Assembly (NCBI GenBank): GCA_036320915.1
Contig: JAXBDG010000016.1
Coordinates: 248,001 to 312,000 of the forward strand
Source of the DNA: Linnemannia elongata
Taxonomy: Eukaryota; Mortierellomycota; Mortierellomycetes; Mortierellales; Mortierellaceae
Reading direction: 5' to 3'
Length of the DNA: 64,000 nt
Shown here: positions 29,924-62,015 of the stretch, piece by piece
How the letters are laid out: each line of letters starts with the position of its first letter
Position numbering within the stretch: the stretch's first letter is position 1
The notes under the pieces: generated by a model
The model's input: only the letters and a program-made list of their open reading frames with translations
Databases searched by the model: none
Told to the model about the DNA's origin: nothing
Translations under genes and position numbers: made by a program

Positions 29924-30466
29924 ACTTCTCTTCCTGTAAAGAAAAGATCCGTATGAACCACTGGTTATTGTCTCTTCTTTTTTTTTTGTGGAGGACAACC
30001 TTTTGGCGACGATCTTTTCCTTTTACAAACTATATGCCCGTAGCTTCGTCGAGCCTTTCTACCCGTGTCGTTTGCCTCCCATTTTATTATGTAGCCATTT
30101 CTTAAATGACAAGTAAAAAGAGGACAAACAAGGGGCTTGACATTCAAGCGTCTGTGTATTGCCAGCACTCTTTCGTGCTTTTAACCCATAACTATATATT
30201 TCCCTTGTGCATCTACATGTATCTTGGCATAACCACTAAAGTGGCGGCAGTTTATTTTATAAACGTCTTTCTCCCTTTCAATACTTTCACCTCATTCACA
30301 TGCAATCACCCTTATGCTAATCGTTAGCTTGATGGGCCCGTTCTCCGCTAAGCTTGTTTCACGTCGGTGCTTTGGCCATCTTTTGTGATTATGATGCAAA
30401 CTCAACATACACATATAATATGTACACAGTACTCCCTCCTCAACCTGCCCCCACTCACACTCAAAT
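29924..30466. other. rps9 3' flank up to the truncated element
   Basis: A/T-rich 3' UTR and spacer. No coding signal. Similarity to the element family begins abruptly at about 30467. Confidence 0.5.
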
Positions 30467-31383
30467 TTCAGTTCCGGAGGTGGTTGGAAATAGAAAAGAA
30501 GGCGGTCCCGGTCGGCGAGGATGAGTCAGTCCAAAATATTGAGTCCAGATTGCCTCCTCTTAAGGGACAAAAGGCAAGCGTTGTCGAATACATCAGGGAG
30601 CTTGAGTTGGTCGAGACGCGTTTGTTGGACTTTTACTCTGGAAGCGACGATCGATATAATAAGCATGTTTGGGACATGCAGCGTTGCCAGGCATATGGAA
30701 TTCTCAATTGCTCGCGGTCCAACTCCTCAAGATTATCGGCGGCGGACTTGGTGTCCGGTATGATCCCTCAAAACCAGCCATTATTGGCATTGGCCCCGGC
30801 CAATTTTCGACAAGTTCCGGACTCTCCTCCCTCTACTCATCTTTTCTCATGTACTTTATTCAGAAGGTAAGCATTGCTTTAGGAATTTTAAACTAATTAA
30901 CAAACCCTTCCGTATCTTCATATGTGCAAAATACTAACATACACTTTTTATTAGGCCCGATCGCTTGGTTACCTGGTGGTTGGACTCAATGAATATTACA
31001 CAAGCAAAAAATGTCCTGCATGTGGATCATTTGTGGGACATGTCGACATTCGACGCTTCTACTGCTCAAACTGTCAAGTCTATCACCACCGCGATGTCCT
31101 TGCTGCAGATAATATGGCAAACATCCTCCAGGAGTACCTCGCGCGGCAGGAGCGTCCAGATTACCTCCATCCGGCTGCCGAGGACGGCTCCCTTCCTTGG
31201 AAGGCGAGGCAATCAAGCTCAAGCTCGTGCTCCACCACGACCAGCAACGCAAGCAGCAGTACAATTGGGGTCCAAGGTCGTCTCAAGAGGGCTTCAAACA
31301 CCTCATCGCCAGAGCCTCAAAAGTCCTTCAAGTCCTTGAAGTCGTCCCAGTTGGCCAAGGCGTCCAAGGCGACCAAATCGTAG
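30467..31383 (+). pseudogene. Truncated Fanzor/TnpB-like copy B (RuvC C-terminal part only)
   Basis: This is the 3' third of the protein family seen complete at 37430-41831. It begins at FRRWLEIEKKAVPVGEDES, equivalent to FRRWLEHEKSLVPEGQDES in the complete copy, and has no upstream nuclease domain. Two frameshifts fall at about 30692-30725. The last intron is kept at the same position (30867-30954). The 3' exon is intact and holds the catalytic core: GLNEYYTSKKCPACG (alternative RuvC-II Glu plus first zinc Cys pair), YCSNC (second pair) and HRDVLAADNM (RuvC-III Asp), then a Ser/Lys-rich tail ending at TAG. It lies 0.5 kb downstream of rps9. It cannot make the full protein as it stands; whether the intact 3' exon is expressed is unknown. 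Confidence 0.8.
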
Positions 31384-34205: not shown

Positions 34206-34579
34206 GATGTGCTGTGTGTTCTTTGTGTGTTGATGTGTAGGTTGTTTGCTTCTGTTCGAAGGCAAAGTAAAAAAAATATATATGTGCGATCAGAAAAGGT
34301 GGAGAGAGGGCCATGGCTCGCAACTGCACCGCCCCTCAGCCAAAAAATTAAGGTGACGTCACCATGAAATCTTTCCTAATATGGTTTAATTTCTACTGTC
34401 AATTGACACCATAATACAATGAAAATAGGCAAAATGAGATCATTTGACACAATACGTTTATTCACTGGCATTTTCGCAAAGCACTGCTCTCATTCGGGCC
34501 TTTGACTTGAAGATAGGCGCTGTGTAGCAAAGCTACTGTTTCTTGGAGGTACTGTAAGAGGCTTTCTTTTCCTAGAGTA
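34206..34579. promoter_or_regulatory. slu7 upstream region with CRE-like palindrome
   Basis: The region holds the perfect 12-bp palindrome GGTGACGTCACC at 34352-34363, about 147 bp upstream of the slu7 start codon. It contains the ATF/CREB octamer TGACGTCA. This is a reasonable promoter element; it also resembles the TGACGT box at the far end of element copy A. The pogo element begins at 34580. Confidence 0.5.
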
Positions 34580-34687
34580 CAGTCGATTCGAGTTTTTGTC
34601 ATTTTTTTGCCTTTTTGTCAAGAATATAAGGATCCGTGCAATGTCATTTGTCAATACCCTGTTTAATTTAAATCTTTTTATTCTATC
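34580..34687 (+). repeat. Left 108-bp terminal inverted repeat of the pogo element
   Basis: Identical by eye over all 108 positions to the reverse complement of 37076-37183. TA dinucleotide outside. Confidence 0.95.
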
Positions 34688-34704
34688 TTTTTTGAGTCAG
34701 CTGA

Positions 34705-36891
34705 CTATGTGAACCTGCGTAACGGAAAGTGTGTTTGGGGGTATTTCTTCTTGATTCTAGCATCCTCCTCCTCAAGCAACCGCTCTTCCTCCATCCTCTC
34801 GCGCTCTCTTTTGTTGTAGTTCCTCACGAATCCTGGCTCCGCAAATCCCTCTGCAGGCGTGACTAGTTTCGCTGCAGCAGCATCCAGGTCGCGTCGCAGA
34901 TCGCTGTACTCGTAATCCTGAAGAACTTCAGCCGCCCGGTGTAAAATATCAATACGCTCGTCCACGCCTATCCCCTCGCTCCAAGTCCCACTCTTCTCAT
35001 ACTCCAGCAACGACTGATCTGTGCTGTCGGAAGCATACAGATCATCCGCATCCATGATTGGATCCTCATAGTCGTCATCATCCGTGTCATTCTCATTAGT
35101 AAATAACTCGTCCAACGACACCATTCTAGGATCCACATTAAAGCACTCCATAAACTCAGGTTCCTGCATTCGCTGATAGATAATATCATTGACAAGAGCC
35201 GACCCATCCAGAAGCGTACTGAGCCTTGAGTAGTAGTCCCTTGTGTTGTCGGGATGTGTTGCTGGGATACAGTTGCTGGCCTTGGTTGGTTGATTGATTG
35301 CTGGTTCAAATATGTCAGGGAAGCGCAGCGCTACAGCCATCCTTGGATTACTGTCCATCATTGAGGCTCGGTCAGCAATATCCTCGCGCGTATCCGTAAT
35401 GGCTTCCTGCACATCTGGATCGACTCCGTTGCCCGCCCTCAGCTTCTCTCTCTGGTTATCGCTCAGTATAGGGACATGTGCAAAGCAATCTCTGATGGTC
35501 CTCGGCGTAACCTCGCTCCAGGCTTGTGCGGCAAGCTGCCAACCCTCAAAGTTGGAGATCCTGGCCATAGACACCCTGACCGCCCTTGAGGAACTTCCTG
35601 TATCAGCACTAGCTTCTGCAAGCAAGCTATTTTCATAGGCGCGCCTGGCGACATGGTGACGGTAACGCCGCTTAAAAACCGCAATGATCCCAGCGTCCAA
35701 CGGCTGAGTAACGGATGTAGAGTTGGCCGGCAATGCCTCGACTCTAATATTAGGAAAGTCCAGAGGAAATCGCATTGCTGCTGTATGCGATCTATAGTTG
35801 TCAACCAACAACAGGATCCTTCTGCCAGGTGTTTCCGTTTCAACGACATGCTGTGTATGCTTCAGCCATGCCAAAAAAGCACCTGCGGTCATGTAATCCG
35901 GGCGCACCATCCTCGACTTCCTGGTCCTGTCTTTGTCATCCTCTTTCCAGCAGTTGCCCCATCCGTCCTGATTATCTTGGCCTGGAACCCAAGGCAACAC
36001 GTCGACCTGACCCCGTAGACGAGCGCCTGCTCCAGTCTTGAACCCACGTGGAAGAGTCTGGCCTAAAAAAATAATAATAATAATTAATTAGAACCTTGGT
36101 ATCAAATGGTACTATAACCATCTTGTTTATAATAGCAAAATCCCTTAAGAATGCATACTCAGAACAAACGGCTTCCTCTTATCTGTGCCAGTTGCATTCA
36201 CACAAAATAAGATAGAGACCCGTGTTGAAACGGACTTGGTTCCGGGTTGGCGATCAAAGTCAAGCGTCCATGGAGACATTGTTTGCAGAAAAAGACCAGT
36301 CTCATCTGCATTGTAAATATCGTCCAGTGAATACTCGGCAGCGATGGCCTTGACTCGATCAACACCGGCAGCGATCACATCCATATCCACCGAACCCGCC
36401 TCGCCCTGCATCCTATGGTAATCCAAACCCCAGGCCTTCTTAAAACCCTCCACCCAGGAACTGCCAAAGTCTGGACGAGGAAAAGGCATAAAGCCCATCC
36501 GATTCCACAGGATCGTGTAAACATCATGCGCCAGCGCTCTTAAGAGGACAGTGTCGACTGACAATTGACGAGATCGTATGTCATCCACCATATCAATCAA
36601 TACAGCCTCAACAGCATGGTAAGGACGCTTGTCAATGCGGCATCTATTGGCTTGGTTGGGTCTTATCGCCTCGAGTCTCTCCTTATCCTTCATGAGTCGA
36701 TCGATGGTATGAGGGGACCAGCCATGGTGTCGCTCGTATGATGCCTTATTGGGATCGGATCCAGTTGTAGCTCGGACGATATCACGGTGCGCAAGCCATT
36801 GCTGAAGGCGCTCCCGTCTCTCTTCCAAACTGAGTCGCCCTTTGCTGTCTTGTACATCTTCCTTTGGTGTTAGAAGTTTGAGGTGTTCCAT
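34705..36891 (-). CDS. Pogo/Tigger-type DDE transposase (CENP-B HTH plus DDE_1)
   Basis: Two exons, 36891-36159 and 36062-34705, joined in phase 1 across a 96-bp GT-AG intron; 696 residues. The N-terminal 150 residues are basic and helical with a CENP-B/HTH-like layout (SLEERRERLQQWLAHRDIV; later FPRPDFGSSWVEGFKKAWGL). The catalytic core follows: first Asp in YNADETGLF, second in LLLVDNYRSHT, third in VTQPLDAGIIAVFKRRY, the standard DDE_1 spacing for pogo elements. The protein cuts and rejoins the element ends at TA sites. The C-terminal 250 residues are acidic (Asp/Glu-rich) and end with a basic tail. The stop codon overlaps the subterminal palindrome. No disabling change is visible, so the gene may be functional; nothing shows that it serves the neighbouring element. 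Confidence 0.95.
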
Positions 36892-37075
36892 GATGAATGA
36901 AAAGAGATGGTAAGGAAGCAGAGATGTCTTTGTTTCTGGGATATTGATGAAAGATGTGCAAAAGGCTATCTACAGTAGGAAAGATATGTCATTCCCATGC
37001 TGTTATGTTGCAAGATTACGAGGTGTGATGTCAAATACGCGGGTTCACTCCGTAGTCAGCTGACTGAAGACATCG

Positions 37076-37183
37076 GATAGAATAAAAAGATTTAAATTAA
37101 ACAGGGTATTGACAAATGACATTGCACGGATCCTTATATTCTTGACAAAAAGGCAAAAAAATGACAAAAACTCGAATCGACTG
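37076..37183 (-). repeat. Right 108-bp terminal inverted repeat of the pogo element
   Basis: Reverse complement of 34580-34687 without a mismatch. TA at 37184-37185 outside. Confidence 0.95.
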
Positions 37184-37429: not shown

Positions 37430-40400
37430 ATGGGACTCACCGGCTGGTACCCATTTATTCGAAAGAAGTACGAACCTGTCGTTTTACATCCAACTACTCT
37501 CAACACCATCCCAAACCGACGCCTCCTGGATGTACTCGGCACCTGCTACAGAGTCATTCGCGACTCCTACTCTCACAACCCGGAGGACGTGGCGCATGGG
37601 CGTCTGGAAAAGGAGATTTCTCGGTTTGGTTCACCTCAGCAGTTGAGAATTTTCATTGATGGAGATCAGTCTCTTGAGAAGCGCGCCACAGCTCTTGAGA
37701 GAGAGCGAATCAGAACTAAGGCTCTAGACCGCACGACGAAAAGCCTGGAAACGCTGGAGACGCGCGTCGCAACTGGCTCACGCTTGAGAAAACGCCATTT
37801 TAGCGATGTCCGGTCCGGACTTGCGTCTTCATTCTACTGGTCCAAGGAGCATCGGATGGGATTCGCTCAGTACATGCGCGACAAGGGATGGATCGTCATC
37901 GAGGCCGAAACGGAGGCAGATGTAGCTATTGCAGTCGAGGCACAGGATGATGACATTGTCATATCTGCTGATTCGGACATGCTGGCGTATGAAACCATCA
38001 GGACTCTTTGGCGTCCTGTGTCTGGAGGACAGGCTCTCGTATACTCCATCCCGGCCCTGCTTCAATCCCTTGGCATCACCCGCACCCAGTTGACGGCCTT
38101 GGCGGTCGTTTCAAGAAACGACTACAACCGAAATATTGCCTCATTGGGACCAGCGACCAACTATGGCATTATTAAAAACATTCCTGGAACAGGTAATTGT
38201 TGGAAATGGTTATTCAGGATCTTTATTGGTTACATATATATAAACATATTAAATACTAACGACACTTCATGCCTTTTCCATCATACAGATCCTAGGGATA
38301 TTGTCTCAGCTTATCTGTTAGAAGACAAGGTCATATCGAAAAACAAGGACATGGAGAAGTTCCATAACGCCTTGAGCGTTTTTGTTGACCGGCAACAGAC
38401 AAAAGTCGTGGATAGCGGCTCCCAATCTGACATTCAGGTCCGGTATGAGAGACTTTCGGCTAGGTTCGAGGATGTATGCGCCAAGCACAAGGAATCCAAG
38501 AAATTCCAATTACAAACGACCCAGTCCAGGTATTTTTATTTATTTGTTTATTTACTGCAATGGTTGTGTTGAGCGACTATTATATGCTCATATGAATTAC
38601 ACCCCTAACCGTTGTCCCCTTTTTTTTAAAAAATAGTCCCTCCCACGATACCATCGTTCGATTACGAGTTTCGAGGTCTTTCAACAGATTTCGGACTGTG
38701 GAGTCCCCGTCAGGTGTATCCAAGGAGTTGAAACCCCTTCAACAGCAAGAAGAGCTTTCCAGGATCGTTTCAGAGTCTACCAGTGCGATATTGGATGTGG
38801 AGGATGCAGGTCATGCAGCATTGACTAGGACAAGGATACCGCGCCATCGCCCGAGGTACTCATTCAAGAAACGTACGGGCTTAGGTCACCATGAGCCTCC
38901 TTCCGCAGCCAAACAGCTCAAGTGGAAACCTCCCAAGATGGTTCCTAAAGTCGCCAACAATCCGTCCACTACATCCGTCGCCAAGAAGGACACCGACAAG
39001 AAGGCCAAGGCTATACCAAAGGAAAGATCGACGAACTCCTCAAAAACCGTCAAGCAGAAGTACCTGAAGCCTCTTAGCTGGCACCATCCTACATCGTCGC
39101 TAGAGGTGGGTTTACTGGAACCCAACACCAAGCGCGTTTTTACGGACAGGCCGGACCTACAGCAAGCGGTTGTGGATTGTATCAGGAATGCCTCTACCAA
39201 AGCGGTTGACGTGAAGCGACAAGCACAGCGACTCATCGGAGGATTTATCGAAACATTGAAAACTCGGATTGAGAACGAGGTCGCCGAGGCGAGAGACGAC
39301 GTTTCAGAGGGTGAGACGCTTTCGGAGACCAAGAGGTTGGAGATAAGGCGCAAGGCCGTAACGGACGATGAACGAGTTATTCTGGAGTATCTGGGTGGAA
39401 AGGTGAAGCCAAAAGAAGGTGGTGACGGTGAGAACAGTACCGACGGTAGCCAGCAGCACTCAGACGACACTGACTTGGATGAGAAGGGTGACAAACAAGT
39501 ACATTTCTTGCAGTCATTTTTGGTTTACCTGTACTCCAACAACCTCCCGAACAAGAACTCGGAAATCGGCAAAGCAGTGGACGGCTTTGTCGCCATGTTG
39601 GTCAAGTTTGGACTGTTCGTCGTCACCAGGAGCCGAGGGGAGATAAACCAAAGAACGCCATTTACACCGACGCATTTGGTTCGATCAGTTGTCGGAAATT
39701 TGGCATGGGAGCTTAAAAATATGTACCAGGGTGGCAGCCATCTGCTGCACGACAAGGTTAGGTTACAAGTGCCATCGATAAATATGCACGTTGGGTTATT
39801 GCAACGAGAATCAAGGTCTGATGGTTTTAATTTTTTTTTCAAAAATATAGGTCAGCGCCCTCAAGGACAAGGGGCGGTTGGGACAAGATATCGTATTTTG
39901 CATTCAGGAGGATGTATCGGCTGTCGAAAACTACCTTGCCCTGAACGAGCATATACCAAACCCGTGGCGAATTGTCCCAATTACCTCGTCTCAGCCAGCG
40001 TTTGTATCATTCTCGGAGTTGGAGCTGGGTCATTTTTTTTGGAAATCGGATCCTTTGAGGAACAGGTTGATCGAGCTGGCCAGTTCGGATAGTACCACTA
40101 TTACATCTGCTATGGACCTTGGTGCATGGATCGGAGGACGAGAGCCGGGGTTCCTGATCAAAAACTTTGTTTGTGACATTGATCCAACTGGTCTGTCAAA
40201 TCGTCAGCGCCGCAAGTCTGGACACCGTGGAGCCATCCATCTGCGGTCCATGGATCAGATAGGTACTCATCTTCGGTTGATCGAGGCGACCAAGCCCAAG
40301 GACTACAATGAGAAGGGGTATATACCTCGAGGGTCGATTCGATGCGACGGGTTCCGGATCCAGGTCTTAGCGTTTAAGATCCGAGAACGGCAAGATGCGA

Positions 40401-41831
40401 GGTTCAAGAGATTGCCTGAGGAAGACTTGCCTCCAAGACTGACTAGCACCGTGGCCGGCGGGGACTACTTTCTTCAAGAGATAAGAAACGTTATCAGAAC
40501 TGAGGAGGACATTGCGAGACTCTGGCCAGGAAAGAACGTCGACAATATGAAGATCCTAACCTTGGATGCCGGTCAAGCCTGTCCCATCGGTGCGTATGCT
40601 TATCTACCCAATGGTTTGATCGAGACCGACAAGGGCAAGGAGAAGGCAAATCAGGGAGCAGCCATGGAAGGAGTAATCACCACCGATCTGGAGCCTTCAG
40701 TCGACGCCACAAGTGGTCCCTCGTCTATGCCAGACGTCGCGTCCTCTTCCTCCAGAGCAATAACAGCCGATTCAACCTCGGTGTCTGCCCCATCCCCATC
40801 CTTCGATGTGGCTTACACCTCCGCCCAAGAGCAAGCGACCGATCCTGATCCAGGAGGGGCCCCGTCGTCGTCGTCATCGTCGCCGGTTCACTTTAACTTG
40901 GCCATAAAACAAAAGGCCGTTTACCAGCCTGTGTTCCGATTTCGGCGATGGTTAGAGCACGAGAAGTCATTGGTCCCGGAGGGTCAGGACGAATCTATCC
41001 ACAGCCTCGAGTCGCACCTGCCTCCACTTCGCGGCCACTCTGCAAGTGTTATTGAGTATGCCAGGGAGCTTGAGGAAGTTGAAGAGCGATTGAAGACGTT
41101 TTATACTGGCGACCACCATCGGTTCAATCGATCCAAATGGGATATGAGTCGGGCCAAACATGAGGAATATCAGTTGATGGCTGAGCGTTTACTCAATATC
41201 GTTGGGGGCAGTCTTGGCCGTCGCATCGAGGACAATAAGGAGCAGGATCCCATTTTGATTGGTGTTGGTCTGGGTCAGTTTGAAAGCAACATCAAGCTGA
41301 GCTCACTAGACTCAACATTTCTCGCATACTTTATCCGAACAGTAAGCCTTTCATTGATGGCTCTGATGATGGTTTGTTTATACAAATCAAACGCCGGGGA
41401 TTGACTTGGCTTTTATTTTTGTTATTTAGGTACGATCTCTCGGTTACATCGTCCTGGGAATAAATGAGTATTATACTAGTAAGAAGTGCCCCCGTTGCAC
41501 GCTTTTTGTTGCGCAAGTAACCCTCAGAAGTCTCTATTGCTTCAATTGCTCAACATACTTTCACCGGGACGTTCTCGCCGCAGAGAATATGTCGCTTATT
41601 GTTCGGGAGCGTCTCAAAACGCAAACGAGGCCACGTCATCTACAGCCCATAAACGCTGATGGATCTTTGCCTTGGGAGGCCGTCCCCGATACAGGACCTA
41701 CAGCGAGCTCGAGCAGTGCTGAGGTCAGCAGCAGCAGCAAGCCAAATCCATCCCATACACGCCGCAAGAGGACCACCACCGCCTCGAGCCAAGGACTAGG
41801 AAGGCGTGGTGAGAAGGCAGCCCGAGTGTAG
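37430..41831 (+). CDS. FEN1/XPG-type nuclease fused to Fanzor/TnpB-type RuvC nuclease (complete copy A)
   Basis: Five exons, 37430-38192, 38289-38529, 38637-39756, 39851-41341 and 41430-41831, with GT-AG introns of 88-107 bp and agreeing phases, encode 1338 residues. Residues 1-300 look like a FEN1/XPG nuclease: MGLTGWYPFIRKK at the start, Asp34 (RRLLDVLG), Asp77 (IFIDGD), Glu162/Asp164 (ETEADVAIAV), Asp181/Asp183 (VISADSDMLAY) and Asp231 (VVSRNDYNRNIASLG, the helix-two-turn-helix region). A basic linker follows (near 400-560). Residues 709-1338 are Fanzor/TnpB-like: RuvC-I Asp947 (LTLDAGQA), alternative RuvC-II Glu1218 (GINEYYTSKKCPRC), zinc Cys 1225/1228/1242/1245, RuvC-III Asp1252 (HRDVLAAENM), then a Ser/Arg-rich tail. 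Fanzors are RNA-guided DNA nucleases of eukaryotic mobile elements. The fusion and joint role are inference from one open frame shared by two copies. Confidence 0.85.
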
Positions 41832-41939
41832 ATTAGTTAGTTGTAAGTGTATCAGATTATACACATTATTGCCGGATTGTAGGGGCTGGACCCAAGATGA
41901 CTTACTTCGGTGACGTCATTTTGGCGTCTATTCTCCTGC
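41832..41939 (+). ncRNA. Candidate omega-RNA scaffold and right end of copy A
   Basis: Sixteen nt past the stop is a 6-bp stem with a 6-nt loop: GTGTAT 41847-41852 pairs with ATACAC 41859-41864. TTCGGTGACGT follows at 41906-41916, then about 23 bases shared with copy C. Every stem position differing from copy B is changed on both sides. A guide, if made as in other Fanzors, would come from flanking DNA after 41939. RNA existence is not shown by sequence alone. Confidence 0.45.
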
Positions 41940-42015
41940 AGCCGGATTGGAAAGATTCTGACACATCACCCTGACATCCTTCACCTCCAACCACAAACCA
42001 AGACCACAGACGACC

Positions 42016-42812
42016 ATGGTACGCAAACAGGACAGGACGAATACAGGAAGCCATGGACAATCACAAAGCTAACAAAGAAAACCGAACTTGCCAGGAGGTC
42101 ATAGAGATGAATGCATCACTAACCAGGTCAAAACCTTTATTAAATCCCTTCTCTCCAACAAAAAATAGGACCGCGCCAACTTGAACAGCCAGCTCGAGCA
42201 CTTGCAATCCAAGTACGTCGGTACTGGACACGCCGACACCAGCAAATAGTAAGTTCCCCTTCACCTAACCCCTCTCGGGACATTTAACAATAGCACTGTG
42301 CTGTCAACAAGCAACCTAAGTAACTGACCATCGTCTCCTTGTTATACCAAATCAATTTTTTTTAGCGAGTGGGGTGTGAACCAAGCAAGAGACACATACG
42401 CATCGTATGTGGGCCACTACCCCATGATGTCCTACTTTGCCCTTGCCGAGAACGAGAGCATTGCCCGTGTCAAGTTTAACATCACCGAGGTACAGTACCT
42501 TGCCTACTAAAGTCAAGCGACCTTATTATCAGCGGCTTTTCAAGGACATTTTGTGAACAGGACTAATACAGCATGGATCATGGAGTGCGGCACAGGCAAC
42601 AAGAACTATGATATGATAGAAAGGCGGTATCAGCTATCTATAACATGTCGCCCTTGTCCACGGAAGCACAAAATGGAATACAGAAAGCATAGTGCAGGAT
42701 CGAAAATACCGTGTGCAATGCGAAGACTAACACCACTACATTACTTTCAATTATCTTCCCATAATAGAAAATGGTGCAACCTTGCGGACCCCCACCAGAG
42801 CGCCGGGAATAA
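42016..42812 (+). CDS. SF3B5: Splicing factor 3B subunit 5 (SF3B5/SF3b10/Ysf3)
   Basis: Four exons: 42016-42018 (only the ATG), 42169-42248, 42366-42489 and 42768-42812, with GT-AG introns of 150, 117 and 278 bp; 83 residues (human 86). After the initiator Met the product reads D-R-A-N-L-N then SQLEHLQSKYVGTGHADTSK, YEWGVNQARDTYASYVGHYP, MMSYFALAENESIARVKFN and ends KMVQPCGPPPERRE, nearly colinear with animal SF3B5. It is a small structural subunit of the SF3b complex of U2 snRNP, which recognises the branch site. Exon 1 holding the start codon alone is required to obtain the conserved N-terminus. An AATAAA overlaps the stop codon (42808-42813). Start lies 77 bp after the right end of element copy A, so its promoter may include element DNA. 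Confidence 0.95.
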
Positions 42813-55016: not shown

Positions 55017-55747
55017 TTCTAGTCGCGGGACAATGGACGGCAGAAGGGAAGATGATGACGAATTAGCAGAGCACCATGGTGTATTTTGGTAATTGTCGCC
55101 ATCAGCACTGTGCTATTAGCCCATTACCAAGAAGTTTCAATCCCAGTGGTTGTACTGCCAAGCGTGTGCGTCGATGCGGTGGGTGGGATCCAGAGATGAT
55201 TGCAAAAGAGAGGAGACGGAGAAAGCGATGTGTGAGAGGTGGCCCATCGTCTTAAATAATTTGAGCCACACATACAGTCTGCCAGGGGCACAGTCTGCCA
55301 GGGGCACAGTCTGCCAGGGGCACAGTCTGCCAGGGGCACAGTCTGCCAGGGGCAACAGCCTGCCAGGGGCAACAGTCTGTTCGTCTGGATTGACACGCAC
55401 CATATACGGCATGTCAAATAGGTCGTTGGCCTCGTTCCTGAAACGCAGACCGCGTTTAAGACGTGCGTTGTGAATCTCGACTTGTGATTGGTTAAATTGT
55501 GAGCTCCCTTAATAGACTTGAGAGTTGGGGGTACGAGATAATTCTAAACGTCATTTCTCGGTGTGTGGAGGACAATGGACGCCATAATTCTCTTATTGGC
55601 CAAGGGATAGCACTTGTCTTTTAAATAAAAAAATTCAGCTCGCATTTTGCTCAATCCTTTTCTTCTGCCAGTACTTTCATACACACTCCAAGTTCCCTTG
55701 TCAACACACACTCTACACCAAGCCTTCTCAGCACATGTAACCTCAAA
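55017..55747. other. Upstream region shared by the 1043-aa gene (-) and element copy C (+)
   Basis: Contains the 16-bp minisatellite, a TATA-like AAATAAAA stretch near 55622-55630 and, just before the copy C start, CACATGTAA (also present before copy A). ACGTCATTT occurs at 55548-55556 and is a possible partner of the TGACGT box at the right end. Confidence 0.5.
55275..55379. repeat. Tandem minisatellite, 16-bp unit
   Basis: Five identical head-to-tail copies of CAGTCTGCCAGGGGCA (55275-55354), then two 17-bp variants with an extra A and partial remainder to about 55379. No spacers between units. Confidence 0.95.
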
Positions 55748-58700
55748 ATGGGGTGCCGATCCCTTTGGAAATTTTTTGCAAGCAAAAAACACCAACCATC
55801 AATACGGTATCATCGACACTTGGCGAAAGGTCTACAGGAATGCCGCGTCAGGCACGCGCCGACAAACACGAATAACAAGGTCAGGGTGGACGTCATGGGC
55901 AGCATCTTCTCTACCATCCAATACGCGTACACGCATTGCTCTCGGGAGGCAGCCCATGCCCTGGTCCACAAGCGACTGAAGAAGCTGGCTAATCCCCTCA
56001 TCTCGGTACTCTACTTCGACGGCGACCCAACAACGGAAAAGGAATCTACTCATGACGAACGGGCAAAAGTCCGGCGTAAGGCTGAGGAGTTGGCTGACGA
56101 GAAGATCAACGAGTTTGAGGCGCGAATCAACAACGGGCAGAGAATACGGAAACAGCATTTTGTTGGGATCCAGAAGCAGCTCAGCAGGGCATTTCAGTGG
56201 AACAGCGAGGATCGTCTCTCCCTTATCGACTACCTGCGCGACCATCAGTGGATCGTCCAGCTATCGCCTTACGAGGCGGATGTCCACATCGCTGATGATT
56301 GCGCGCCGGGCGATATTGTCATCTCAGGCGACTCCGACCTCATAATCCACCCAACAGTGACTACAGTCTGGCGGCCTATTTCGGGTAGTCGATTTCTGGA
56401 GTATATCGTGGACGAGGTCTTGGCAGTACTCGGTATTGGTCGGCCTCAATTGGTGACCCTAGGAGTCGTCTCTCACAACGATTACAACAAGAATATCTAT
56501 GGACTCGGATGTGCTACAAATTACAAGATCATCAAGGACCTCCCCAAAGCTGGTATGTGTAATTAAGGCTTGCTTGTTTGTAACTCCTTATTTTTTTTAT
56601 TAGACTTATTGACCCAGATAATCCTTTTTATGCAACTAGAAACCGATGTGCCCAAGTTGGTCGCGGCATACCTTGCTGACTCCCGTGTGGTCATCAAGAA
56701 CACCGACCACCTGGACTTTCGCAACTCTATCAGGGTCTTTGTACAGCGTTTGCAGGAGGGTGTGAAAGCTCTCCCGGATCTTGATGCACACTCAGGCAAT
56801 AGGCTCAGGACGCGGTTCGAGGAGGCGATGAAGAAGTACCAAGAGCGAAAGAAGTCTGAGGTTGCAGCAACACTGGCGAAGAAAAGGTATCGTTTACCTC
56901 TTCCAACTTTTTAGCTTATTATCTCTTCATGCCTGCAGTGTTTTTTTACAGTTGATATTAATGCTGCTTTTGTAATATAGAGCATTGGTCGACCATCCAA
57001 GGAGACACAAAAGATCCCAACAATACAACCGTTACAGAACGATAGACCAACCGCCACCTACGGATGTCAAGCAGGGCAACGTCACCGCAATCCGTACTCG
57101 ACCCCGATATTCACCCAAACGACGATCCAAATCAAAAAAGCACGCACCCCCAAAAGCCATGACCCTCTACAAATGGAAGGCCTGGAAAAAGAAGCCCGAG
57201 ACTCCGGACGACACCTCAACCACTACTGATGCCAAGATCAAGGAGCTGAAGCCAAGGAAATACGTTCCCCCGAAAATCAAGTTGGAACTTCTCCGAAGTC
57301 TCAGCAGGGAACATCCCATTGTTTCCCTTGACGTCGGTACTCTGAGAGCCAACGTGCGTTCAGCACTCAAAGTCAAAGTCGAGCCGACTTCGAACGATGG
57401 AGCTGGATTACCGGACAAGGCTACTCCGACAATTGGAAATGGATCATTGGTGGAGGTGGGCAAGACTGTCGGCTTAGATATGGCGGTAGAGGCTGGCCTG
57501 ACCGAAGCATCAACAGTTCAGGTCGAAGCCGGTGTGGCAGAGAGGGTTGAGGTGGCCAACGCTGTAGTCGCTTGTCTGAGAGGCGCTGCTCGCCAAGCCT
57601 GCAAGGTCAAGAGACGGTGCCAGGGTATCTTTGGGAGGTACATCGAGCGAGTTACTGTGGGTGAGGTTTCTCCAGCAGACCGTCGGTTCTTAGACTTTAT
57701 CTGCCCCAGCATCCCTTCAAAGGACTTGACTAGTACGGATGGCGCTAACCAGAAACAGGACGATGACGACCACAAACTAGACCAACAGGAAGCCTTCATC
57801 GGTTGTTTTATGCGTTATCTGTACTCAGGCAAGACCCCTGCTGCTTCTTATACTGGCGCTTCGACGGCCTCTTCTGGCAAGGCTTCTAAGGTGGGACAGA
57901 GCGTTATGGAGTTTATTACACGCCTCAAGCAGTTGAAATCCTAGAGTCGCGCGGCCAAGCGTTGATGAAGGATGGTTCCGAGTACACTCCTGCCTCTATT
58001 GTCAGATCAGTTGCCACCCAGCTTGCAGTCGAGTTGAAGAGAATTTATCATCATGGAACTTTCGAGCTTCAGGAACAGGTAATTAGCATACTTAATGCAC
58101 CTTTTAATGACCTTAATATATTTGGAATGAATTGAAACAAGCTATTAACATCAACCAATCGCAATATACTTTTTACCATTGTAGCTCAAAGCCCAATGGG
58201 ATAGGGATCAGAAGGCAAAGCAGGAGGCTTCTGGTTTGGAGGAGGCACCCAAGGCGGAGCAGAAGGCGAAGTCAGGCAAGCATTCGACAACGGCCGAAAA
58301 GGACACCGCCCAGGACTCGAAAGCAGCCTCCGTCGATAAGGAATTGCTGCTAAAGATGAAAGCGAGCAATGGAGCCGAATCCAGTAAAAAGGTGGCGACG
58401 GTCGGTCCCGATATGGAGATTCACAGGAATTGGAGTGCAATCGAGAACTTCCTAAGGTTCAACCGGCGTTCTTCTAACCCACGAAGGGTTGTGCCAATAT
58501 CGTCTCAGGAGGACAGGTTTGTCTCTTTTTCTGAGAAGGAGATCCTTGCCTTTTTCTGGGGCAGACCCATCCTGCAAGCCGTTCTCAGAGAGTTCACAAG
58601 CGCCCAATACCCCTCTGGCGTTGCGTTGGATGATCTCTATGAATGGTTGGGAAAAGAGCCACCTGGATACCTCATCAAGCTCTTCCTATCGAATATTGAT

Positions 58701-60343
58701 CCCAAGGGTCTCACCAAGCGACAAAGAGGCAAGGCAGGCTATCGAGGAGGAGCGATCAAGTTGATGAGCGTTGCTGAAATCAAACAGCACCTCTCCTCTC
58801 TTCGGCCCCAAAACCCCACGGACTTCAAGCCGGACAGCTACACTACAAAGGGGTATCTTCTGCACGGCTCGGTTCGTTGCGATGGCTTTCGTATACAGCT
58901 CACGGCCTTTAAGCTCAGGGAACTTCTCTGTGTCAAGTACCGTCAGCTACCTGAGGATCAGCTTCCCTTACAACTCACATCGACTGTCGGCGGATTGGAT
59001 TTCTATCTTACAGAGATCAGGAACATCGTCAAGACCAAATCGGACGTGGAACGGTTGTGGCCAAACGTCGATCCTAACGAGATCAAGGTTCTTTGCATTG
59101 ATCTGGGCCAGGCGTTTGTTGTCGGCGGGTGCGCCCTTCTTTCCGACTCTTTTATAACAGTTCCTTGCGACAAGATGGTTCTTGGAACAAGCGACGAGAC
59201 TCCATCTTCCTCGGCTTCCTCGACCTCTGCCTCATCCTCTACTCTGTCTACTGACTCTTCGTCCTCGGCTACCCCGACAACAACCGTGGTCCAGCCCAAC
59301 CCCGCCTTCTACAACCTGTCTGTGAGTCAGAAGGCCGTTTCACAACCGACCTTCAAACATCGTCGGTGGATGGAGGACCAGAAGAAGATTGTGCCTCAAG
59401 GAGCGCAGGAATCAATCGCGGACATAGAGTCGGAACTGCCTCCTCTCCGGGGAAAAGATGCCAATGTTGATGAGTATCTTGAGGTCCTGGAGCAGCATCA
59501 TGATCGGCTCGACGCCTTCTACAATGGAGATGGTATGCGATTCAAGCAACATGGTTGGGATGCGAAACGAGCACGAGTCGAGGAGTTCAACATCATCGCC
59601 AACCGTCTTTTAGGTCTTGTCGGAGGCTCCATTGGTGCCAAGCGCAAGGACGACAACCACGTCATCATTGGAATCGGGCTAGGCCAATTCACTTCCAAGG
59701 GAGGACTCAGTTCATTACACGAAACGTTTCTATCTTTCTTTGTACAGCTCGTAAGTACAACGTTCGTTTTGTGGTGATGTTTATAAACCATGCCTGGATA
59801 TATATTATAACATATTTTGTGCTGTTTCCCTTTTACTCGTAGGCCCGATCACTAGGGTATCTTGTTGTTGGAGTTAATGAGTTCTATACTAGCAAAAAGT
59901 GCCCGACATGTGGAGAGTTTGTTTGTCAAGTCAACCTCCGCCGGTTGTATTGTCAGACATGCCAAGCATACATGCACCGCGACATTATGGCTGGTCACAA
60001 CATGTGTAACATAGTCAAGACCCATCTATTGACCCAGACAAGACCGCTGTATCTACAGCCTATTGATGAGGAGGGGCATTATCCGTGGATGGAGGATGGT
60101 GAGAGCAACAGGATCGATGCAGGCACCAGCAGGGGCTTACCCTCGCAGAACCCCAAGGACAAGGCGGAGACAGTTGGTCCAACCCAAAGAGTCAGCAAGC
60201 GCAAGTCAACCAATGACTCTATGCCAGGAGACGGTTCAGTTCGACAAGACAAGAAGCGCAAGGCGGTGACGGACTCGAACCCAAGAGTGAGCCAATCCCG
60301 AGGTCCCAGGAAACGCTCACAAGTCAAGAAGGACACTAGATAG
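55748..60343 (+). pseudogene. FEN1-Fanzor fusion, copy C: full length but with one frameshift
   Basis: Exons 55748-56552, 56640-56886, 56981-58078, 58185-59750 and 59843-60343, with introns at the same five-exon positions as copy A. The nuclease half keeps its acidic residues: Asp48 (VRVDVMGSI), Asp91 (VLYFDGD), Glu176/Asp178 (YEADVHIA), Asp195/Asp197 (VISGDSDLII), Asp245 (VVSHNDYNKNI). The RuvC half keeps LCIDLGQA, GVNEFYTSKKCPTCG, YCQTC and HRDIMAGHNM. In exon 3 the frame ends at TAG 57942-57944 after LKQLKS, while the adjoining frame continues with EILESRGQALMKDG and TPASIVRSVA, the equivalent of copy A RSRGEINQRT and TPTHLVRSVV. So a net one-base loss (or two-base gain) lies near 57930-57941. 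No splice option repairs this. It may be a recent knockout or a sequence error. Confidence 0.8.
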
Positions 60344-60439
60344 TCTTTTGTGTGTTGCAACCACACTACCAAGTGAAGATAGTGGAGGATGCGCGTTTAC
60401 GTGGCTTCGGTGACGTAATTTAGGCGCCCATTCTCCTGC
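60344..60439 (+). ncRNA. Candidate omega-RNA scaffold and right end of copy C
   Basis: A 5-bp stem with a 7-nt loop (GTGTG 60350-60354 with CACAC 60362-60366) lies directly after the stop; TTCGGTGACGT is at 60406-60416, followed by a tail shared with copy A up to ATTCTCCTGC at 60430-60439. Layout and spacing match copies A and B. Function inferred. Confidence 0.45.
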
Positions 60440-60732
60440 TTTCCTCTCGGTTTAAGATGTCCATGCTATTGCAGGTATCAAAGGGATCGTTCGTCTTATA
60501 ATATACTTCCCTCTACATGAACAATAAAACTCCTATAATTTAGTGCGTGCCATTCAACATAATCATCAAACTGAAGGCAATATAATACATACCTTGGAAG
60601 TATAGGGAAGCATTGGAGATAAGATATCTCTCTATTATCTAAGCATTTTTTACAAACCAAGATGGGACCTCATGAAAATATATTTTTTGAAGACATGGTC
60701 CCTGATATTGTGGATATGGAAAACCTGCCAAC

Positions 60733-62015
60733 CCAAAGATATTGTTCTTCTGACTCAAGACCCGGACTTCTTTGCTTACGATTCGGTTACCATGATCTGG
60801 TGTCCTGTTGGCAAGTGGGACGACGTCAAGCCCTAGAATATAGTAGAGAGGCGGTGCCAGCCCAGATACAACTGTCGGACCACCACGCTTACTGCCCTGG
60901 CATGCGTTTCGAGTAATGACCAGAAAAAGTACATCCCATCGATGGGGATTCCCATCAACTACAGCATCATCAAGGATCTACCCGATAAGGGTAAGAACAA
61001 ATAACTTGCCAGCATGCCCATATCCCTTCTATTCCTTGTGGATATGAGCAGACTCATCATCTCATCATGACGCCTTTGAACCCTTTCCATATTAGACGTG
61101 CCGTCCCTGGTGAAGGAGTATCTCGAGAGTCCACGCATGGTCTGCAGCGATCAGGAAGGCATCGATTTCACGGCCTCTATTCTCATGTTTACTACAATAA
61201 CCCAGAAGATAGCTGCTCCAGCGGGAGTATCTTCTGTCCAGTCGCCCTTACAGTCAGCGACGCCTTTGATGGCCTCCTCTGCATCCATCATGTCTTACGA
61301 ACCACTCTGTCATCAGTACAAGGCGATGGTAACACATTAGGCGCTGTGTGATTCTTTCATATGACCTTGGTATGACTTTCCCATCACTTGCAATCAGTCT
61401 AACACGCTGTTTGCCTATTATCACACTCTTCAACATGCTCTAGCAACGCCCAACCCAATCGACAGGGCAAGTGCAGGGAATTTAGAAGGCACAGTGTGGT
61501 CGATCGGCCAGCTCACCAGTCTCAAGTTTCGAACAAGTGCAACGGCCGCGGCATTCGTACAAGGCACGCGCAGAACCACAGCACTACGAACAACCATCGA
61601 TCTGCAAGCAATATGAACGAAAGTCCTATACGGCGGAGTAAGAGATACGGTACCGGGAGTCGATTGCTGAGGCCAGGGGAAAAAAGGCGAAGAAGAAGCG
61701 GCAGCGTGAGGCTCGGCGATACAAAAAGGAAAGGAGCTAGCCGAGAAGCCGCCGCCCAAAATCGACGAGATGAACAAGACTCAACTGATCAATGCTATGG
61801 TGTACGAGCATTCCCTTGTCTCCCTTCCCGTCGGCACAGTCAATGCCAACAGTAAGCGGGCAGCGGCAGCGGCAGCAATAACTACCAATACCAATCAATT
61901 CCCCTTGTCTGACAGCAACAGCAACAGCAACAATAACAACAAGACGTCTCTGCCTGCATTTTGGATATTTTCAGGCACGTTCGCACGACGAAGAGACATG
62001 TACAAGAGTTTTTAG
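60733..62015 (+). pseudogene. Decayed copy D of the element (nuclease domain and linker only)
   Basis: Pieces in changing frames match the FEN1-like half: KDIVLLTQDPDFFAYDSVTM then IWCPVG (compare VISADSDMLAYETI, LWRPVSG), a stop, LTALACVSSNDQKKYIPSMG then INYSIIKDLPDKG (compare LTALAVVSRNDYNRNIASLG), an intron with GTAAGA donor, and DVPSLVKEYLESPRMV (compare ETDVPKLVAAYLADSRVV). Later KPPPKIDEMNKTQLINAM and EHSLVSLPVGTVNAN match the linker (VPPKIKLELL; EHPIVSLDVGTLRAN). The RuvC half and the 3' box are absent. It follows copy C by about 300 bp in the same direction. Stops and frameshifts make it non-functional. Confidence 0.7.

Follow-up and report, generated by a model that had tools for sequence, protein, structure and literature searches.

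A FEN1/EXO1-type 5' nuclease predicted to be fused to a Fanzor1 nuclease in mobile elements of Linnemannia elongata

Introduction

RNA-guided nucleases are, to our knowledge, generally described as cutters that leave the break to the host, and human EXO1, human FEN1 and yeast Rad2/XPG are stand-alone repair enzymes. Here, we describe a mobile element of the fungus Linnemannia elongata in which a 5' nuclease of the latter family is predicted to be fused to an RNA-guided-type nuclease, Fanzor1. The element, copy B, lies in a 64,000-nucleotide stretch of contig JAXBDG010000016.1 (C8:248001-312000, hereafter the window) of a 51.1 Mb genome, together with a second copy of the same kind, copy C.

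The available parts of the sources on the Fanzor1 proteins SpuFz1, GtFz1 and PpFz1 mention no FEN-type domain for them, and the extra part that they describe for PpFz1 is an insertion in RuvC that binds cyclophilin (PMC11423790). The MuDR-like Fanzor1 elements ROr-4, PBl-3 and MCi-4 of Rhizopus, Phycomyces and Mucor are likewise fungal, bear terminal repeats and lack a gene for a transposase, but their target duplications are 9 bp, compared with mostly 8 bp in the Linnemannia element, and the accessible text of the report mentions neither a second nuclease in the protein nor an ACGTCAC target (PMC3627910). The same text describes PGv-1, a viral Mariner-type Fanzor element that also carries a Fanzor and a second nuclease, but as two separate proteins, and the second has a GIY-YIG fold unrelated to FEN (PMC3627910). 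An earlier sequence-only reading of this DNA knew of no described system of the present kind, and a Fanzor-XPG/FEN1 fusion was not found in the literature searched, subscription journals being mostly outside it. In databases, pieces of the fusion are labeled as 'hypothetical', 'Cas12f1-like TNB domain-containing' or 'XPG-I domain-containing' proteins. The fusion would be a structure-specific repair-family nuclease built into a eukaryotic RNA-guided-type nuclease, under selection in Mortierella-type fungi.

Gene structure and predicted domains

The spliced product of copy B has 1338 residues and a single terminal stop, and its five exons (Table 1) are joined in frame across introns of 96, 107, 94 and 88 nt, all GT..AG, with splicing read from the sequence. 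These joins bear out the five-exon, 1338-residue frame of the sequence-only reading, and the FEN1-like acidic residues, the RuvC residues and the four cysteines that it had assigned were all found where it placed them. The gene is predicted to encode one protein, a FEN1/EXO1-type 5' nuclease followed by a Fanzor1 RuvC nuclease.

Exon 1 matches XPG_I above the Pfam gathering score (26.7 versus 24.9 bits). The best matches of the nuclease domain are FEN1, EXO1 and Rad2/XPG, both in a PDB profile search and in a fold search of the predicted structure, with 14-18% identity to EXO1/FEN1. Structure prediction and fold search found a PIN-like FEN fold with a helical arch, the very fold whose absence the sequence-only reading had named as grounds for giving up its claim; the identities that it proposed for the two halves are now backed by Pfam, profile search, structure prediction and fold search. 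In an alignment of 15 of the 30 exon-1 loci of this genome (A1; stop-bearing, truncated and near-duplicate loci excluded), the seven acidic metal ligands and the K/R gateway pair are invariant in all 15 copies, down to 38% identity. The spacing of K84 and R91 is also conserved, as compared with FEN1 K93, which we take to be the gateway lysine. In an alignment of database proteins (A2), the rows with a letter at the position have D34 in 12/14, D77 in 16/16, K84 in 17/17, R91 in 16/17, D181 in 16/18, D183 in 18/18 and D231 in 18/19; E162 and D164 lie outside that count.

The domain might instead be a passenger, folded but inactive or only DNA-binding. Its Pfam score is near the cut-off, with proteins P0031 (21.6 bits) and P0006 (23.5 bits) below 24.9, and single A2 rows have no equivalent of D34, R91, D181 or D231. 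The loss of a FEN-type residue in a few database proteins also counts against the reading that we favor below. On the other hand, the nine catalytic and gateway residues do not vary among the 15 copies of alignment A1, and the ratio of nonsynonymous to synonymous substitution rates (dN/dS) is about 0.13, which makes a passenger very unlikely.

As for the C-terminal half, exon 5 matches Cas12f1-like_TNB (PF07282) at 39.8 bits versus a gathering score of 26.3. Copy B fits the Fanzor1 motif D-X(125,275)-[TS][TS]XX-C4-X(5,50)-RD, as given in the available text of PMC3627910, with D947, a gap of 273, TSKKC, four Cys and HRD. The RuvC triad D-E-D is conserved in A2: the first D in 24/24 rows, E in 20/21 with a letter (one K; three gaps) and the last D in 20/20 with a letter (four gaps). 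The predicted model of P0031 (mean predicted local distance difference test score 76) has a REC/WED/RuvC/TNB fold like SpuFz1, a likeness at the level of fold only. A weaker point is that its Foldseek superposition on Fanzors is loose, with root-mean-square deviations of 11-20 and target template modeling scores of 0.37-0.50.

Recurrence of the fusion and selection

The genome has 54 places with a TNB domain, and at 31 of them a nuclease domain lies 2.9-3.4 kb upstream on the same strand. Since so many TNB places share the same upstream domain, the fusion is not due to chance. Copy C carries it too, as the sequence-only reading had held. Database searches returned overlapping sets of 16, 33 and 16 proteins, and all matches with a named source are from Mortierella-type fungi (Linnemannia, Podila, Haplosporangium, Gryganskiella, Entomortierella, Benniella, Dissophora and Mortierella; P0052 has no source name). 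Such searches reach only relatives that share short words, and other fungi may hold the fusion. A profile of the nuclease domain matches 29 of 41 database proteins, some of them perhaps in part only; the other 12 lack a match, and several of these start in the region after that domain.

When related copies are compared pairwise, the nuclease exon has a dN/dS of 0.12-0.13 in four pairs with a synonymous divergence (dS) of 0.41-0.45; these four overlap, each setting the same two sublineages against each other, and do not count as independent. The ratio is 0.12 for L014/L016 and 0.23-0.30 in four other close pairs. For exons 1, 3, 4 and 5, the ratios are 0.14, 0.49, 0.51 and 0.18 in L043/L045, and 0.23, 0.34, 0.21 and 0.14 in L040/L049. 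Pairs with copy B could not be used, their dS being saturated. The pairwise divergence of the two halves correlates across 15 proteins (r = 0.82; 0 of 5000 permutations). Taken together, the nuclease domain is under purifying selection, and both halves, including exon 3 between the domains, are constrained as coding sequence. Several facts count against the reading that we favor below: the other 23 of the 54 TNB places have no detected upstream nuclease domain, some copies contain stop codons, and two very close pairs with stop-bearing members (dS 0.02) have nuclease-exon ratios of 0.58 and 0.92, which look relaxed.

Two adjacent genes could in principle have been read as one, as the splicing of copy B was read from its sequence. 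However, the in-frame junctions and the exon order recur in diverged copies and in proteins of other species, and the exon between the domains is itself constrained as coding, so we consider a gene-model artefact extremely unlikely.

Table 1. Features of copy B, copy C and related loci; positions are those of the window, except for contig-end places, which are given by contig.
Feature	Positions	Strand	Evidence or remarks
Exon 1, FEN1/EXO1/XPG-family 5' nuclease domain, residues 1-254	37430..38192	+	D34, D77, E162, D164, D181, D183, D231; gateway K84, R91
Exon 2, end of nuclease domain, about residues 255-334	38289..38529	+	Spliced frame; P0031 EXO1 match extends to residue 297
Exon 3, linker then Fanzor start, about residues 335-708	38637..39756	+	Frame; dN/dS 0.33-0.49 (related copies); P0031 Fanzor match from residue 445
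Exon 4, Fanzor body, RuvC-I D947 (codon 40565-40567), Ser-rich RuvC insertion	39851..41341	+	Frame, alignment
Exon 5, RuvC-II E1218 (41466-41468), four-Cys TNB zinc finger, RuvC-III D1252 (41568-41570), stop	41430..41831	+	Pfam PF07282, 39.8 bits; D-E-D conserved
Hairpin GTGTAT-loop-ATACAC, possible guide-RNA 5' stem, upstream of right-end hairpin	41847..41864	+	Minimum-energy fold
Right-end hairpin to last base of element; predicted guide-RNA 3' scaffold, guide from flank 41944	41874..41943	+	Fold, arm-swap test
Left part of B element, first ~46 bp missing, directly preceded by TGACGTCAC (34354-34362)	34363..34579	+	Match to left ends of intact copies
Nested Tc5/pogo-type DDE_1 transposon, outside the Fanzor element's own machinery	34580..37183	-	60-bp perfect terminal inverted repeats, TA duplication
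Copy C, both ends, same fusion, 7/8 bases of target duplication kept	55563..60443	+	Sequence comparison
TNB places near contig ends	C2:8289, C3:12111, C6:6338, C32:6152, C9:1447301, C27:2931583, C31:2724596		

Element ends and target site

Near-identical copies end sharply, giving elements of 4,691 bp in the L043 subfamily and 5,090 bp in the L040 subfamily; copy C is 4,881 bp long, and seven members of a third subfamily measure 5.3-6.0 kb. The ends of the L043 and L040 subfamilies are GG[GC]TGCAGGACAATGGACGCC and ..GGCGCCAATTGTCCTGCAGCC, and form terminal inverted repeats. Among 16 copies with both flanks, the target duplication is an exact 8 bp in nine and agrees at 7 of 8 bases in two; L036 shows 9 bp on inspection, and L041, L049, L029 and L032 mismatch. 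The B element itself is without its left terminus, a further point against the favored reading.

In the left flanks, the heptamer that stops two bases short of the 8-bp duplication resembles ACGTCAC, at 6 or more of 7 positions in 12/20 flanks and at 5 or more in 14/20, against a window background of 0.1% of positions for the former; loci in which no left end was identified are excluded from these counts. The full TGACGTCAC stands at that position in 5/20 left flanks and occurs 219 times on both strands of the 51 Mb genome. It should be borne in mind that the motif was defined and counted on one and the same set of flanks, which tells against its strength. The motif is directional, lying left of the element in these flanks, and an emptied site would therefore read motif-NN-right flank, like the target-adjacent motif (TAM) and target of a Fanzor. 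In the available text of PMC10432273, the Fanzor TAM lies 5' of the target and the guide is at the RNA 3' end. We infer that the TAM of the element would be (TG)ACGTCAC-NN.

Some insertions lie inside the ends of older copies, which themselves carry TGACGT. The B element is inserted just upstream of an SF3b10 gene (41944-42500; Pfam PF07189, E 6e-32). Insertions may favor promoters, given this neighbor and the likeness of TGACGTCAC to a cAMP response element (CRE) site.

Candidate guide RNA

The last 110 nt fold better than shuffled sequences in 7/7 sequences (z -2.5 to -5.8), with z -5.75 for the B element. When arms were swapped among five subfamilies, the native pairing ranked first of 120 for the outer and for the whole arms. 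The loop of the right-end hairpin varies among the right ends of L051, L057 and L059 (CUCG, UUCG or UCCG); UUCG and UCCG are UNCG-type loops, which fits a role of this hairpin as RNA. Less favorable to an RNA role are the inner arm, for which the native pairing ranked 13th of 120, the weak consensus of RNAalifold on a MAFFT alignment (9 pairs, one with a compensatory change) and an Rfam search, which gave no match. We read the right-end hairpin as a likely guide-RNA scaffold, although it may instead act at the DNA level. The 3' transcript would be the guide RNA, with the right flank as guide.

The attached nuclease might also work on RNA, processing the mRNA at its 3' end into the mature guide. 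We find this decidedly unlikely, because the best matches of the domain are DNA flap nucleases and exonucleases (FEN1, EXO1 and Rad2/XPG) and the K/R gateway pair keeps its spacing.

Proposed role of the fusion and possible sources of a transposase

We tentatively favor the reading that the fusion is an RNA-guided cutter. Its attached nuclease would trim or resect each break at the 5' ends and in this way lead repair to copy the element back into emptied or allelic sites. After trimming of the 3' transcript to yield the guide RNA, such sites would be located by the complex at (TG)ACGTCAC-NN and cut by RuvC. The FEN/EXO1 domain would act at the guided break, trimming displaced 5' ends or resecting, which would favor homologous copying of the element. 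That the two nucleases could share one target, as the sequence-only reading proposed, has indirect support from the conservation of both active sites. The first insertion would probably be made by a transposase supplied in trans, because the 8-bp duplications look like staggered transposase cuts. With the fusion, the question of how Fanzors serve their transposons once a cut has been made becomes accessible to experiment. It would also provide a naturally occurring model of a guided cutter that processes the ends it makes, with the predicted TAM as the first to try.

In two intact elements that were scanned, the long frames on the forward strand coincide with exons of the fusion, and no further frame is of transposase size. 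The genome has 44 matches to hAT and 24 to Mutator-like element (MULE) transposase domains, and these transposases could act in trans. One MULE end resembles the left end of the Fanzor element over 20-odd bases, but this likeness was dropped because 30/300 shuffles reach it. A KDZ transposase search gave no match, but its controls gave none either. The transposase beside copy B was rejected as the element's own: it belongs to the nested transposon in the 5' part of the B element (DDE_1 E 5e-20; HTH_Tnp_Tc5 below cut-off), which has its own repeats and duplication (Table 1).

A transposase in trans leaves room for a role in integration, in which the nuclease trims 5' flaps at gapped junctions after insertion and the Fanzor half only tethers. 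FEN1 trims gapped-junction flaps at retroviral integration, the 8-bp duplications imply gapped junctions, and the missing transposase frame together with the multi-copy hAT and MULE families would suit this role. Against it, the genome has four strong XPG_I matches, probably host FEN1-family genes, and the one hAT end and one MULE end that were compared both differ from the Fanzor element repeats. We judge a role in integration to be unlikely.

The element might also do without any transposase. In one form of this idea, it would be a self-sufficient two-nuclease element, in which RNA-guided search at TGACGTCAC-NN, the RuvC cut and 5' opening by FEN/EXO1 drive homing and perhaps insertion, which we hold to be doubtful. 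In another, guided cutting and 5' processing would form the whole mobility machine, also excising and inserting the element with no DDE transposase. The elements have one long gene each, and the 24 of 25 exact 14-mer end matches that were inspected (left out: C3:1831035) are Fanzor-type ends. No autonomous element with the same ends was found among the 35/39 end matches with at most 2 mismatches that were inspected (left out: C3:1831035, C3:2235027, C5:1163322 and C12:4262397). However, regular 8-bp duplications and inverted repeats are typical of DDE transposases, and some copies have a short second frame. Published Fanzor1 elements without a transposase bear MuDR-like ends, according to the available text of PMC3627910. 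A whole mobility machine in the fusion alone appears improbable.

Among the end-match loci, BLAST shows L067 and L068 to be decayed Fanzor elements, and L076 and L077 look by eye like decayed ends. C23:420463 is a Fanzor-type left end with no nuclease domain within the 1 kb inspected.

The two scanned elements have eight reverse-strand frames of at least 100 codons, the longest of 133, and four reverse-strand frames searched against Pfam gave nothing above cut-off. Two subfamilies have, in their left part, a short reverse frame that reaches 75-128 codons in the best copies; it has 19 genome matches, mostly near known Fanzor copies. It has a conserved peptide in the left parts of L035, L032, L040 and L084 (e.g. 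C23:420594-420827); L043, copy C and L023 score low for it. Its dN/dS is 0.25-0.97 in seven pairs, several members carry stops, and it has no Pfam match above cut-off. This frame could be either a small second gene, which would count against the favored reading, or a relic.

Further observations

Of the 54 TNB places, seven are found no more than about 15 kb from a contig end, each of them pointing away from it (Table 1). One of them, L075, was inspected and has no nuclease domain in the preceding 3.3 kb. These places are possibly a separate subtelomeric Fanzor lineage.

The gene model of P0038 (Linnemannia hyalina KI688_006789) joins Fanzor to a PF20147 domain further on, presumably a Crinkler-type domain, and may be no more than two genes modeled as one next to an insertion. 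Elsewhere in the window (30352-31380, 60606-61001) lie two remnants of other, decayed copies: the C-terminus of a Fanzor and a piece of the nuclease domain. In the decayed left end of L068 (C9:205501-207800), a long palindromic insertion directly follows the terminal repeat.
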